A stretch of DNA of 64,000 nucleotides, from assembly GCF_003610915.1 (NCBI RefSeq), contig NZ_NSDJ01000001.1, positions 2,914,001-2,978,000 of the forward strand, given 5' to 3'. The position numbers were made by a program, and so were the translations under genes. This document shows positions 15,588 through 20,329 of this stretch, piece after piece (position 1 is the first letter of the stretch; each line of letters opens with the position of its first letter). This DNA comes from Rahnella variigena (GTDB taxonomy: Bacteria > Pseudomonadota > Gammaproteobacteria > Enterobacterales > Enterobacteriaceae). A model generated the notes under the pieces. That model saw only the letters and a program-made list of their open reading frames with translations. It had not been told where the DNA came from and made no database searches.

Positions 15588-15669
15588 GTCGCAGAAAAGG
15601 ATTTAATAGTTTATGACTTCATTGTGTGACACTCTAATGCGCATCTCAGGTGTGTATGAGGAGGGTGTT

Positions 15670-15906
15670 ATGTCATCAGTAACAGGAAATAAAAAACGAA
15701 CGAATGTCACGCTGAGTGCCGATTTACTAGAACAGGCCAAAGTGTTCGGCATTAATCTTTCAGCAACGTTTGATAAAGCGTTAGGAGAAGCGGTGAAAGA
15801 GAAGCAAAGGAAACTTTTCTTAGAGGAAAATCAGCAAGCAATGGATTCCTGCAACGCCTTTACTGAAAAGGCAGGACTCTTCTCTCAGGGACGTGGAGTG
15901 TTGTAA
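15670..15906 (+). CDS. ccdA: CcdA-type antitoxin
   Basis: 78-residue antitoxin expected to bind and neutralise the CcdB gyrase poison and to repress the operon. The N-terminal ribbon-helix-helix is seen in KKRTNVTLSADLLEQAKVFGINLSATFDKALGEAV. The acidic, flexible C-terminus (EENQQAMDSCNAFTEKAGLFSQ) corresponds to the toxin-binding part. The start follows a strong GAGGAGGG site; the longer frame from 15613 has none. Its stop overlaps the ccdB start in TAATG, giving tight coupling. Confidence 0.9.
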   Translation: MSSVTGNKKRTNVTLSADLLEQAKVFGINLSATFDKALGEAVKEKQRKLFLEENQQAMDSCNAFTEKAGLFSQGRGVL

Positions 15907-16217
15907 TGGCGCAATTTGATGTGTACGAAAATCAGGGAGAAGGTAAAAATCTTTATCCCTATTTTATGGATATTCAGAATCCCTTATTTGAAAGACTTAA
16001 TGAGCGGATCGTTGTGCCGCTAACTGCACTTAGCAACCTGAAACCCATCAGGCATCTTCATCCCCTTATCAGGATCCAAAATCATCAATACGTGCTTATG
16101 ACTAATCTCCTGACCAGCGTAAGTGCGACGCAATTACGTCATGAACCGGTGTTAAATGCAGATATTCATCGGGCGGATGTTGTTGCAGCGCTGGACTTAC
16201 TGGTGATGGGAATTTAA
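15906..16217 (+). CDS. ccdB: CcdB-type gyrase-poison toxin
   Basis: 103 residues, beginning MAQFDVYENQGEGKNLYPYFMDIQNPLF and with IVVPLT and HQYVLMTN typical of CcdB. The family inhibits DNA gyrase by trapping the GyrA-DNA complex. The C-terminal tripeptide that contacts gyrase is W-G-I in the F-plasmid protein and M-G-I here, so potency may differ; Gly-Ile are kept. The pair is chromosomal, placed between the EF-G paralogue and wrbA, and ends in a perfect palindromic terminator. Confidence 0.9.
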   Translation: MAQFDVYENQGEGKNLYPYFMDIQNPLFERLNERIVVPLTALSNLKPIRHLHPLIRIQNHQYVLMTNLLTSVSATQLRHEPVLNADIHRADVVAALDLLVMGI

Positions 16218-17155: not shown

Positions 17156-17380
17156 TTATTCTCTTTCTTTTTCCCAACTGACCAGAATTGAGACTTCATC
17201 GGGTTGCGCGATGAATTTACTGAGAGTGGCGGTATGACCGTCTTTCATCATGACCGATACGGCAACGCCAGTAATGCCGTGATCCAGCGGGGTTTCTTCA
17301 ACGCGCTGAAGCATTTTCAGACAGGTAAATTGCTGCTCCGGTGGCAGATGTTTGAACTGATCGGTGTGGCGTTTCTTCAT
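17156..17380 (-). CDS. Small protein of unknown function downstream of the adhesin lipoprotein
   Basis: 74 residues, soluble, with no signal peptide or membrane segment. I do not recognise a family. Its ATG overlaps the stop of the preceding lipoprotein gene (ATGA) and has a GGAAGGA ribosome site inside the lipoprotein reading frame, so it is translated as part of the same unit. It is the last gene of the adhesin-lipoprotein-small protein series. Confidence 0.7.
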   Translation of the reverse strand: MKKRHTDQFKHLPPEQQFTCLKMLQRVEETPLDHGITGVAVSVMMKDGHTATLSKFIAQPDEVSILVSWEKERE

Positions 17381-17793
17381 ATCGGCATCCTTCCGTAAAT
17401 TTGGCCGTCACGCATCAAAACCAGCTTATGGGTGCGCTTGTAATAAATCGCTGTGAAAACACCTTTGCGATAGACCTGAGCATCCGCGTTATCTTCATCA
17501 AGGTATGCTGCAGTCCCTTCGATATATCCCTGCTTGTCAGCGGGAAAGATTTTGACATCAATCCCTTTAATGCGGGCGTGAACGACTTTTTTGGTTGCCT
17601 GTGCATACTGCTTCGCCGAGTTTTCCATCGCCTGCTTCAGCGCCACGCTCTGAATAGACGTCTGACGATTTTGCTCTGCCATGTAACACGTATCTTTTGA
17701 AACGCCTTGTGACTGACAGTCCGCCATTCTGGAGGCCTGAGTGGAGCAGCCTGCAAGGACGGTCAGCGCAGCAATGACTAAAAGTTTTTTCAT
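17377..17793 (-). CDS. Lipoprotein of unknown function next to the trimeric adhesin
   Basis: 138 residues. The first 16 form a lipoprotein signal with lipobox LAGC (Cys16) followed by Ser, which predicts outer-membrane sorting rather than inner-membrane retention. The mature part has two further Cys (MADCQSQ, KDTCYMAEQ), a short helical stretch and a basic C-terminal domain (VYRKGVFTAIYYKRTHKLVLMRDGQIYGRMPI). It begins 49 bases after the adhesin gene. By analogy with SadB and TpgA, which accompany trimeric autotransporters, it may assist adhesin assembly or anchoring, but no homology to them is claimed. Confidence 0.75.
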   Translation of the reverse strand: MKKLLVIAALTVLAGCSTQASRMADCQSQGVSKDTCYMAEQNRQTSIQSVALKQAMENSAKQYAQATKKVVHARIKGIDVKIFPADKQGYIEGTAAYLDEDNADAQVYRKGVFTAIYYKRTHKLVLMRDGQIYGRMPI

Positions 17794-17818
17794 TTTGATT
17801 TACCCGTATTGGAAAGAT

Positions 17819-17834
17819 GGGGGACGAGTCCCCC
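17819..17834. other. Perfect palindrome between adhesin and lipoprotein genes
   Basis: GGGGGAC and GTCCCCC arms are separated by two bases. The hairpin lies in the 49-base gap and is not followed by a T run on the coding (minus) strand. It is therefore better read as an RNA-processing or stability hairpin inside an operon than as a terminator. Confidence 0.6.
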
Positions 17835-17842
17835 CTGAATTT

Positions 17843-19672
17843 TTACCAGCCAACACTCACGCCAGCGCCGTAACCGAAGTTACTTTGTGAATCGTCTGAA
17901 ACTGACATTTTCACGATGGTAGCGCGGCTTGCATGGAATGATGCACCGACGGAAATTGCATTCTGTGAATCGTAGCCACCGACACCGGCACCGACCGCGA
18001 ATTGCTGAGATTCCTGCACCTGAGGAATGTTGGCCTGTGCCATGGCAGAAGCAGAACCTGCGGCGGCTTCTTTCTTATTGCCATCAACCTCAGATTTCAG
18101 GTCGTTGAATTTCTTGTTGGTATAGTCATTTGCCTGCCCCAGGGTTTGTGCATCTGCCACCGCTCGGCTGTGAGATTCAGCTAAGATTTCGCCTTGCTGT
18201 TCCTGCTGTGTTTGTGCCAGGGTTTGGATCTGCTCCCCGTAATACACGCTCTCGATTTTTTGTTGCTTAGCGGCCATTGCAGACTTCTTCTCTGCTGCTT
18301 GCTGTTGTTGAGCAACTTTCTGTTGTGTGGCATGAGCCGATGCATCGATCTCAGCCTGGGTCTTGGCCTGCACCATGCGCTGGTATTTATCACTCTGAAC
18401 CATCTGTAACTGCTTAGCCGCACCTTCCGCTGTGTCTTGTGCTGTTTTTGCATCATTAGCAGCTTGTTCAGCCGTCCCCTTTACATCACTTAAAGCAGAT
18501 TTATTTTGATCGATTTCGTCCTGTTCGACGTGAGAAGCAGCCAAGGTGGCGGCAGCATTCATGCGTGAATAGTGATCTTGAGTGAGGTCTCTGCCATTTT
18601 GACCCGCAGCGCCGGTATCGCCTTTAGCACCATCTTTACCATCTTTGCCGTCAGCACCTTTCGCTCCATCTGCACCTACTGGACCTGTTTGACCATTAGT
18701 GCCATCTACGGCAGCTACCGGAGAAATATGCTGTTGAGCAGTACGATCTCTGTTTGCCTGCTGCATTGCAGCGCCATCGATCTGAGCTTGCAGGTTATTA
18801 TCGCTCACCAGACGTGCGGAAGTTTCTTTATCAATCTGCTGGCGGGCGTAATTAACGCCCATTGAAGCGGCTTTGATATCGTTATCCTGCTTGCCATCGA
18901 TGCCTTGCTGGTCATCTTTATTCTGGTCAATCTTTGCGTCTAATACCGCTTCATTGTCCATTGCATTTTTATGCGCAGCATCAGCGCGACCTAGAGCAAA
19001 AGCCGCTGCTGAATTCGCCTGTTCTGTTTTCAGATCCTGACCTTCATCACGTGTTGTTTGTGCTGTTTTGATGCTGTTGATCTTCACGTCTTGTAACTGG
19101 TCGTACCCTGAGCGGGAGGCTAATTTTTCGGCAAGTGATGTTGTTTTGGCTGGTGTATTTAGAACAGGTGGTTCATCAGTCAGCTGACTATCAGTATGGG
19201 TGGATTGCGCATCTGATGGAGTGACAACTGGCTCAACCGGGGCAATGGGAGCGAGTGGGGTTTGTGGTTTTTGAGCATCATCCTGAGTCGGTTTGATTGG
19301 CAAGACCTGTACAACTCTGTCTCCATTGTCATAACCGGTGTAATAGCTATTTCCTTTCAGAGCATCATTAGCCTGTTGCAGCGTATCAGACTCATAAACT
19401 CTTGTGATCAATTCTGGTTTGAACTGTGCAATTTCAGGATTGGTTGAAAAATAGTTATCTGCTGCTGCTTTATCAGCCCCTGATAAAGCAGCTTCTGCAT
19501 TATTTGGTGCAACAGCCGTACCTATAACTACACCAGCCAGCGCAGCAGACGTTAATACACGCCGGATTGTCGAGAGCGAAACACCGAAAATATTAGCAAG
19601 TTCGGTTTTGCTGGTTTGCCCTGCTGCGAAAACTGAAATTATTTGAGTGTTACGACTGCTTGAAGAATTCAT
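17843..19672 (-). CDS. Trimeric-autotransporter-like adhesin with N-terminal helix-turn-helix and collagen-like repeats
   Basis: 609 residues in an unusual order. Residues 8-40 (QIISVFAAGQTSKTELANIFGV then SLSTIRRVL) read as a helix-turn-helix. Residues 41-61 are a hydrophobic signal-like stretch ending in AEA. A Pro-rich segment (125-175) and long Ala/Gln-rich coiled-coil regions (200-315, 370-530) follow. Residues 327-361 hold about eleven uninterrupted Gly-X-Y triplets as in collagen. The last 50 residues (FAVGAGVGGYDSQNAISVGASF... to FGYGAGVSVGW) match the YadA-type beta-barrel anchor, ending in an aromatic residue. Expected role: surface fibre in the outer membrane. The HTH before the signal peptide is not the usual extended signal region. 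Upstream is a motif-rich gap and a divergent HTH gene; downstream is a lipoprotein gene. Confidence 0.82.
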   Translation of the reverse strand: MNSSSSRNTQIISVFAAGQTSKTELANIFGVSLSTIRRVLTSAALAGVVIGTAVAPNNAEAALSGADKAAADNYFSTNPEIAQFKPELITRVYESDTLQQANDALKGNSYYTGYDNGDRVVQVLPIKPTQDDAQKPQTPLAPIAPVEPVVTPSDAQSTHTDSQLTDEPPVLNTPAKTTSLAEKLASRSGYDQLQDVKINSIKTAQTTRDEGQDLKTEQANSAAAFALGRADAAHKNAMDNEAVLDAKIDQNKDDQQGIDGKQDNDIKAASMGVNYARQQIDKETSARLVSDNNLQAQIDGAAMQQANRDRTAQQHISPVAAVDGTNGQTGPVGADGAKGADGKDGKDGAKGDTGAAGQNGRDLTQDHYSRMNAAATLAASHVEQDEIDQNKSALSDVKGTAEQAANDAKTAQDTAEGAAKQLQMVQSDKYQRMVQAKTQAEIDASAHATQQKVAQQQQAAEKKSAMAAKQQKIESVYYGEQIQTLAQTQQEQQGEILAESHSRAVADAQTLGQANDYTNKKFNDLKSEVDGNKKEAAAGSASAMAQANIPQVQESQQFAVGAGVGGYDSQNAISVGASFHASRATIVKMSVSDDSQSNFGYGAGVSVGW

Positions 19673-20002
19673 CTGTTTTTTCCGGCCATAAAATAAGTAT
19701 CTGTTAGCGACAAATAAGAAGCGTTATCAGAACGCTATTTTTGTCTCCTTACCAAAATCATACATGCGGTGAATGTGACTTGCTTCACGCATTCACCTAA
19801 CGTTTGACTTATGTCAAGAAACGTAAAGTTATAGCGCTACATGAATTTGTTTCACTTAGCGCGCTTATTTGTCGCTAGTGGACACGAAATGGCGTATCTG
19901 GAATGTAAAAACCTAAGAATTTTCGTAGCGAATAGCGACAGGATGAATTCTCTACGGGATTCTTGTACAATATGCAGGGTTAAAGAAATTGGAGATAAGT
20001 GA
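19673..20002. promoter_or_regulatory. Divergent regulatory region with TAGCGACA motifs
   Basis: The 330-base gap has no gene. TAGCGACA occurs at 19705-19712 and 19933-19940 and inverted at 19870-19877. The first and last belong to a perfect 14-base inverted pair, TAGCGACAAATAAG (19705-19718) with CTTATTTGTCGCTA (19864-19877). Other symmetric elements are AGCGTT/AACGCT (19720-19736), GGTGAATG/CATTCACC (about 19773-19799) and TAGCGCTA (19832-19839). A TACAAT -10-like element at 19966-19971 precedes the HTH gene. This is the pattern of a cooperative operator region controlling both divergent genes. Confidence 0.65.
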
Positions 20003-20329
20003 ATGGCAGATAACGCAAATGAGTTCCTGGACTATGTCCGGAGGCTGGATATTGATCAGCCCGCGTTGTGTATCCTGTTGGGACTGCCGCGCAGCACGTT
20101 AAATAAGTGGATCAACGGCACGGTGACGCAAATCCCACAAGTGGCCGTTACTGCTGTCAGAATGCTTTGGTTCATGCGCAACAGTGATGAAGCATTATTT
20201 GAAAAGTGGGCGATAGTGCAGGATTTTGGTGTGACTGCCGACTATGCCGTCAATGACAGAGTGCAGGAATTTTTGCATACGATTAAACGTGAACCCAGCC
20301 CGGCGATCAAAAAGCTATTGAACAAATAA
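20003..20329 (+). CDS. Small helix-turn-helix protein divergent from the adhesin
   Basis: 108 residues. The centre reads LDIDQPALCILLGLPRSTLNKWINGTVTQIPQVAVTAVRMLWFM, an HTH with STLNKWING as the recognition helix, like Cro/XRE-related regulators. The rest is helical. A good ribosome site (GGAGATAAG) precedes the start. Its position across the motif-rich gap makes it the likely regulator of the adhesin unit. The helix-turn-helix pattern (LxxxxGxxxSTLxx) resembles that in the adhesin N-terminus. A strong terminator follows. Confidence 0.8.
   Translation: MADNANEFLDYVRRLDIDQPALCILLGLPRSTLNKWINGTVTQIPQVAVTAVRMLWFMRNSDEALFEKWAIVQDFGVTADYAVNDRVQEFLHTIKREPSPAIKKLLNK

Follow-up and report, generated by a model that had tools for sequence, protein, structure and literature searches.

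A conserved Rahnella adhesin locus, read as a probable locally regulated operon with an assembly lipoprotein and a helix-turn-helix signal-peptide extension

What is a helix-turn-helix (HTH) motif doing at the N-terminus of a surface adhesin? The question is raised by positions 17156 to 20329 of a 64,000-nucleotide stretch of Rahnella variigena DNA (assembly GCF_003610915.1, contig NZ_NSDJ01000001.1, positions 2,914,001 to 2,978,000; hereafter the window), where genes for a 609-residue adhesin, a lipoprotein and a 74-residue protein run in one direction and a 108-residue HTH protein is encoded divergently. The open reading frame listing of the window places these four genes in one Rahnella locus exactly where an earlier note, made from the letters alone, had put them, with the same 49 bases between the adhesin and lipoprotein genes and the same -4 bases between the lipoprotein and 74-residue protein genes. 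On balance, the locus is probably a self-contained adhesin operon under local regulation, with a lipoprotein for assembly and an HTH-extended signal peptide. The order of the genes, their conservation and linkage, the gap motifs, the purifying selection on the HTH and the losses are observed, and binding, the direction of regulation, the chaperone role, cleavage and export timing are inferred from them; the surprising feature of the locus is that an HTH is kept in a signal peptide. The parts of the locus are as follows.

17156..17380, minus strand: 74-residue protein, no signal by eye, its start overlapping the lipoprotein stop by 4 bases
17377..17793, minus strand: lipoprotein of 138 residues, with lipobox LAGC, Ser at +2, invariant Cys26 and Cys36 and a long helix
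within 17377..17793, minus strand: eight-strand C-terminal beta domain of the lipoprotein (residues 71-137)
17794..17842, minus strand: intercistronic GC-rich hairpin directly 3' of the adhesin stop, in the operon direction without a T-run
17843..19672, minus strand: adhesin of 609 residues
17843..18025, minus strand: YadA membrane anchor of the adhesin (residues 550-609 plus stop; PF03895)
18026..19489, minus strand: adhesin passenger with a collagen-like stretch
19490..19672, minus strand: HTH-bearing extended signal peptide (residues 1-61), cleavage site judged by eye
within 19490..19672, minus strand: HTH core (residues ~7-40) and hydrophobic segment (~41-55)
19673..20002: divergent promoter region, kept across Rahnella and the genus of Ewingella (11 aligned Rahnella gaps, invariant blocks, motif counts)
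19705..19716, plus strand: operator-like motif TAGCGACAAATA, copy 1
19866..19877: second copy of TAGCGACAAATA, inverted
19933..19939: additional TAGCGAC
19774..19789, plus strand: candidate CRP-like site TGTGACTTGCTTCACG (GTGA-N6-TCAC pattern)
19804..19817, plus strand: dyad TTGACTTATGTCAA (TTGAC-N4-GTCAA pattern)
20003..20329, plus strand: 108-residue HTH protein, putative local regulator, Cro/C1- or YdaS-like below Pfam cut-offs

Judged from its YadA anchor, the adhesin is a trimeric autotransporter, as had been proposed: its C-terminus (residues 550-609) matches YadA_anchor, PF03895, above the cut-off (E 1.6e-11), which is the anchor of type Vc proteins, and it is the sole such match of the whole genome. 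YadA head and stalk repeats, which are common in such proteins and not required, have no Pfam match in it, and are present in two Rahnella autotransporters encoded elsewhere; the passenger carries a collagen-like stretch at residues 324-360. Compared with the adhesin of the window, those of other Rahnella species show 58-98% identity over the last 110 residues, whereas much of the passenger diverges so strongly as to give no alignment between species, so that passengers appear to have been exchanged over a constant anchor. In R. woolbedingensis (L021 7223-11980), the set of adhesin, lipoprotein and small gene is repeated in tandem, and one of the copies has a broken small gene.

The HTH, which the earlier note took for the head of the displayed adhesin, is placed here instead in front of the hydrophobic segment of the signal peptide and of an AxA-type cleavage site (located by eye), and as a signal-peptide extension it is expected to be cut off, so that it should be removed at export and not form a surface head. 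An HTH-like match, to HTH_7, covers residues 10-41 (E 0.0016; 19.0 bits vs the Pfam cut-off of 23.8), the leaders of three relatives likewise scoring under the Pfam HTH cut-off, and the predicted structure is a three-helix arrangement for which the first Foldseek row is a DeoR DNA-binding domain and the first rows also include a Trp-repressor DNA-binding domain. All scores of this comparison are middling, unrelated ribosomal proteins stand among the top VIA rows for the fold, and the predicted third helix continues into the hydrophobic signal segment. Over seven sequences, the ratio of nonsynonymous to synonymous change (pN/pS) is 0.22 in the HTH core vs 0.80 in the next 12 codons, with synonymous change saturated, and 18 positions are invariant across the seven Rahnella and Ewingella leaders; by these figures the core, recognition helix included, is under purifying selection.

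The leader was found only in Rahnella (matched in 8 of the 14 genomes) and in Ewingella's genus; of the adhesins read, those from Escherichia, Pseudocitrobacter and Hafnia showed none. No match of the leader to ESPR (PF13018) is listed up to E 1 or up to E 10, HMMER filters dropping most matches above ~0.1, and a protein database search with the leader returned two near-identical adhesins of 243 candidates (similar lengths only). A free protein family was considered for it and rejected: its profile matches at least 155 of 392 family genomes at E<=0.01, adhesin leaders of Rahnella and Ewingella's genus standing at E<=1.8e-14 (a decayed one in genome G003 at 0.001) and the non-adhesin matches, which were not counted as relatives, beginning at 3e-6; the latter are mostly open frames of 240-440 residues, one of them (L160) DeoR-like by eye.

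The gap that the adhesin gene shares with the divergent gene was described as motif-rich, and its motifs do exceed chance. The Rahnella gaps (n=11) align with eight invariant blocks of at least 7 bases, and of 24 related gaps 18 contain TTGAC-N4-GTCAA (against 0.00 by mononucleotide shuffling), 18 TAGC[G/T]AC (against 1.41) and 17 GTGA-N6-TCAC (against 0.10); the counts in seven further gaps, from other genera, are 0, 0 and 1. Both the dyad and TAGC[G/T]AC are present in all 18 gaps with a close regulator, that is, one of 154 bits or more wherever scored (Rahnella 13, Ewingella's genus 3, and two from Serratia, without an adhesin), vs 0 of the 13 with a diverged one. Since both motifs track the close regulator type, the 108-residue protein is their putative binder, although few independent lineages are involved. 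The 12-mer TAGCGACAAATA has exactly two copies in the 5.5-Mb genome, both in this gap, and its 11-base form has three, being rarer with one mismatch (64) than the reversed control (140). The 108-residue HTH protein is the probable local regulator of the module, and the gap also carries a putative CRP-like site, patterned on the CRP consensus and present in Hafnia and Yersinia as well.

How far does the set extend? All 14 Rahnella genomes have the regulator gene, as do 3 of an earlier sample of 295 genomes of the order; its model matches 22 of the 392 family genomes, of which 21 were kept (G617, with 41 residues at E 3.4e-5, was left out as spurious). In 18 of these 21 loci the regulator lies opposite an adhesin gene, which is broken in one of them and in another, L130, runs off the contig and was recognised by its start only; 19 have the lipoprotein (one broken), and 6 are Rahnella with the whole set, while the 15 from outside Rahnella have the adhesin in 12 cases and the lipoprotein in 13. 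Of the four genes, two Serratia-genus loci (Serratia silvae and a second genome) are missing only that of the adhesin, and in G465 nothing but the regulator is present. Approached from the lipoprotein (472 relatives at E<=0.001), 62 named loci were compared, 29 of them full-length (model score of 140 bits or more): a YadA-anchor gene lies upstream on the same strand in 19 of the 29, 18 within 160 bases and one at 1.9 kb, and in 4 of the other 33, where mostly the N-terminal part only is present, giving 23 of 62 (L050 and L058, which have long genes before the lipoprotein and no Pfam YadA anchor, being counted as without). Every one of the 13 Rahnella copies, in 12 of 14 genomes, follows an adhesin. 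A lipoprotein found mostly apart from the adhesin, which the earlier note had named as refuting its proposal, thus gives a mixed outcome: this is not so for full-length lipoproteins or for Rahnella, and it is so for all loci taken together. Rahnella has 17 YadA-anchor genes in its 14 genomes, two of which lie elsewhere, with no lipoprotein or HTH partner within the 12 kb fetched around each.

A diverged module also lies in E. coli between ybbJ and cueR (L175 4017-7206), beside siiEA (a type I secreted adhesin), where 1372 of 5426 complete genomes match some part of it, 305 of them over 80% or more, under annotations as a YadA-like protein and hypothetical proteins. By its occurrence in these genomes, the gene set is older than the genus Rahnella and conserved in enterobacteria, which bears out, far beyond the strain, that the genes make up one locus in which the putative regulator is divergent and the lipoprotein goes with the adhesin. 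The idea of four parts forming a fixed set fares worse: the lipoprotein is missing from 2 of 14 Rahnella genomes and the adhesin from the two Serratia-genus ones, the HTH leader is matched in the 8 of 14 mentioned above, and the small gene is replaced in Escherichia and Pseudocitrobacter. Open-licence full-text literature yielded no description of the whole composition, in line with the earlier note, nor of an HTH signal peptide, and no paper on the E. coli module between ybbJ and cueR.

The lipoprotein carries a lipobox and an invariant Cys, and its +2 residue is S in 46, T in 9 and N in 1 of the 56 sequences (Asp in none); lipoproteins are sorted by this residue, which predicts an outer-membrane location here and does not point to inner-membrane sorting. 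Identity with SadB or TpgA, to whose type it had been likened, was rejected by sequence, sorting-residue and Pfam-domain tests: neither SadB nor YajI turned up when solved structures were searched with a profile of it up to E 10, and Pfam gave no match to the peptidoglycan-binding OmpA-like domain that TpgA has. Fold comparison gave no clear family among the matches listed, and SadB and MATH folds are none of the structure matches listed, which is not evidence of their absence. Its N-terminal 60-70 residues are found by themselves, too, as short lipoproteins (Buttiauxella, Aeromonas, plasmids; L034, L035, L063, L069), one of which adjoins an Ail/Lom gene.

A transcript end at the hairpin at 17819 had been raised as a point against one operon; the hairpin is real, and as a terminator in the operon direction it was rejected, its T-run lying on the plus strand. 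In 15 post-adhesin stretches of Rahnella and Ewingella (those of genomes G002 and G012, where the hairpin leads to the small gene and not to the lipoprotein, included), GC-rich hairpins of several unrelated sequences give -12 to -27 kcal/mol, an energy reached by 0-17 of 200 mononucleotide shuffles in 14 of the 15, G003 being weak (43 of 200); the E. coli stretch between adhesin and lipoprotein is without such a hairpin. It is read here as a probable mRNA end protector or partial attenuator. Its recurrence after the adhesin stop (window 17794-17842, L017-L027, L046) holds despite wholly different sequence between species groups, and loci of the G002/G012 type (L176 6656-8859, L177 8262-10484) run adhesin, hairpin, small gene.

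The 74-residue protein has no Pfam, NCBIfam or PHROG match, and a search of ~5.8 billion proteins gave 28 at E<=0.001. Its gene is present in every one of the 14 Rahnella genomes, in Serratia silvae and in a genome of the same genus, was not seen in Ewingella loci, and has in its place an unrelated membrane protein of 67-68 residues in Escherichia and Pseudocitrobacter; by this distribution across regulator loci, its tie to the Rahnella/Serratia regulator type is closer than that to either lipoprotein or adhesin.

Put together, the 108-residue protein would bind the shared gap at the TAGC[G/T]AC repeats and/or the TTGAC-N4-GTCAA dyad and, once bound, govern how its own gene and the adhesin operon are transcribed, in whichever direction, with CRP as a possible second input. 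The operon's first product would be a collagen-like trimeric autotransporter, and the hairpin after it may let the amounts of the gene products differ; the outer-membrane lipoprotein might use its helix and beta domain in the periplasm, in a chaperone-like manner, on the assembly or stability of the fibre, and the small, presumably cytosolic protein would belong with the regulator and not with the envelope. In Rahnella and Ewingella, a DeoR-like HTH would have been added before the signal peptide, forming a new kind of extended signal peptide in which a small folded unit slows or times export and is afterwards cut off.

Several observations weigh against this account. As regards the lipoprotein, 10 of the 29 full-length copies are without an adhesin detectable by the models used; two Rahnella genomes (G002, G012) keep the regulator, an open adhesin frame and the small gene without it, from which it follows that it is not essential, and it is best described, from these genomes, as helpful; and the Serratia loci without an adhesin suggest that it may have another job. 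A doubtful alternative makes it a periplasmic protective or lysozyme-inhibitor-like lipoprotein merely co-regulated with the adhesin, and no assembly factor. As regards the leader, it is decayed or replaced in five of the 14 Rahnella genomes and was not seen in the adhesins of other genera named above, which would suit a basic n-region without function, the remnant of a fusion with a small regulator; the low pN/pS of the core under saturated synonymous change and the 18 invariant positions speak against such a leftover, making it similarly improbable. As regards regulation, many gaps, those of Rahnella especially, belong to close relatives and are not independent, so that motif conservation partly reflects shared descent, and the Pfam HTH scores of both the leader and the 108-residue regulator lie below the cut-off.

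It is still less likely that the leader is a sensor, the unexported precursor or the cleaved leader binding its own promoter and lowering or raising transcription so that synthesis follows export capacity. The selection on the recognition helix, the DeoR and Trp-repressor DNA-binding domains in the first Foldseek rows and the position of the adhesin gene beside a gap with dyads would favour this; however, no 9-mer is common to the gaps of the 8 species with the HTH and absent from the 3 compared without it, the latter keep the same gap motifs, the third helix runs into the hydrophobic segment, the fold scores are middling, with ribosomal proteins among the VIA rows, and the Pfam score lies below the cut-off. 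That the signal-peptide HTH acts on the divergent promoter, before export or after cleavage, and thereby couples adhesin expression to export traffic, is the least probable proposal of all, though it would, if true, be a secretion-coupled transcription switch built into its own cargo.

A prophage or plasmid origin was rejected, the lipoprotein having no match among phage records and the flanks being shared, with the EthD/transporter side in 10 and the wrbA side in 10 of the 11 fetched Rahnella loci compared (L019 ends before its flank, and L026 is without wrbA); a relation to phage tails was likewise rejected, the best 20 of 78 phage records covering only 15-18% of the adhesin, at its anchor end. 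Beside the module, a chromosomal ccdA-ccdB toxin-antitoxin pair lies at window 15613-16217, flanked by an EF-G gene and wrbA, and L023, L024, L025 and L027 have no match at that position; one Rahnella genome (L022 8653-8844) has a partial second wrbA start adjoining the module, which suggests a local duplication.

What is gained is, to begin with, a name for a repeatedly conserved adhesin module which in E. coli goes under YadA-like and hypothetical annotations. After SadB and TpgA, its lipoprotein is a candidate for a third type linked to an adhesin. The HTH signal peptide, moreover, amounts to a natural experiment, in that some related species have it and others do not, on a background of common promoter motifs and a similar anchor, so that its role in export or regulation is directly testable.

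Among known systems, SadA-SadB of Salmonella likewise pairs an enterobacterial trimeric autotransporter with an adjoining lipoprotein gene in the same direction, and SadB, like the lipoprotein here, has a lipid anchor, a helix and a C-terminal beta domain. According to PMC3953254, SadB is encoded upstream, sits in the inner membrane, has a MATH-like domain of ~120 residues and raises the surface display of SadA, whereas the lipoprotein here is encoded downstream, carries Ser/Thr/Asn at +2, has a beta domain of 67 residues and matches neither a SadB nor a YajI structure in sequence. AtaA-TpgA of Acinetobacter Tol 5 also joins an adhesin gene to that of a periplasmic partner; PMC8151025 has TpgA interacting with peptidoglycan, and in that respect the lipoprotein here, for which the Pfam search found no OmpA-like domain, is unlike it.

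ESPR resembles the leader in being an N-terminal extension before the hydrophobic segment of a type 5 secretion autotransporter signal peptide, and is described as a conserved 25-residue extension which can slow export, cases without effect being reported too (PMC8151025); the leader differs in being ~40 residues long, HTH-like and without a PF13018 match. In Bartonella, BadA with the Brt RNAs and the Trp HTH proteins is, compared by description, a further case of HTH proteins acting on a trimeric autotransporter gene (putatively so here), with Trp genes given in PMC5387305 as nine family members, each preceded by a Brt RNA, where the present locus has one divergent HTH gene. The E. coli ybbJ-cueR module sets a divergent HTH gene, a YadA-anchor protein, a lipoprotein and a small gene in the same order as in Rahnella, and differs in having a plain signal peptide, a regulator ~30% identical and an unrelated membrane protein as its small gene.

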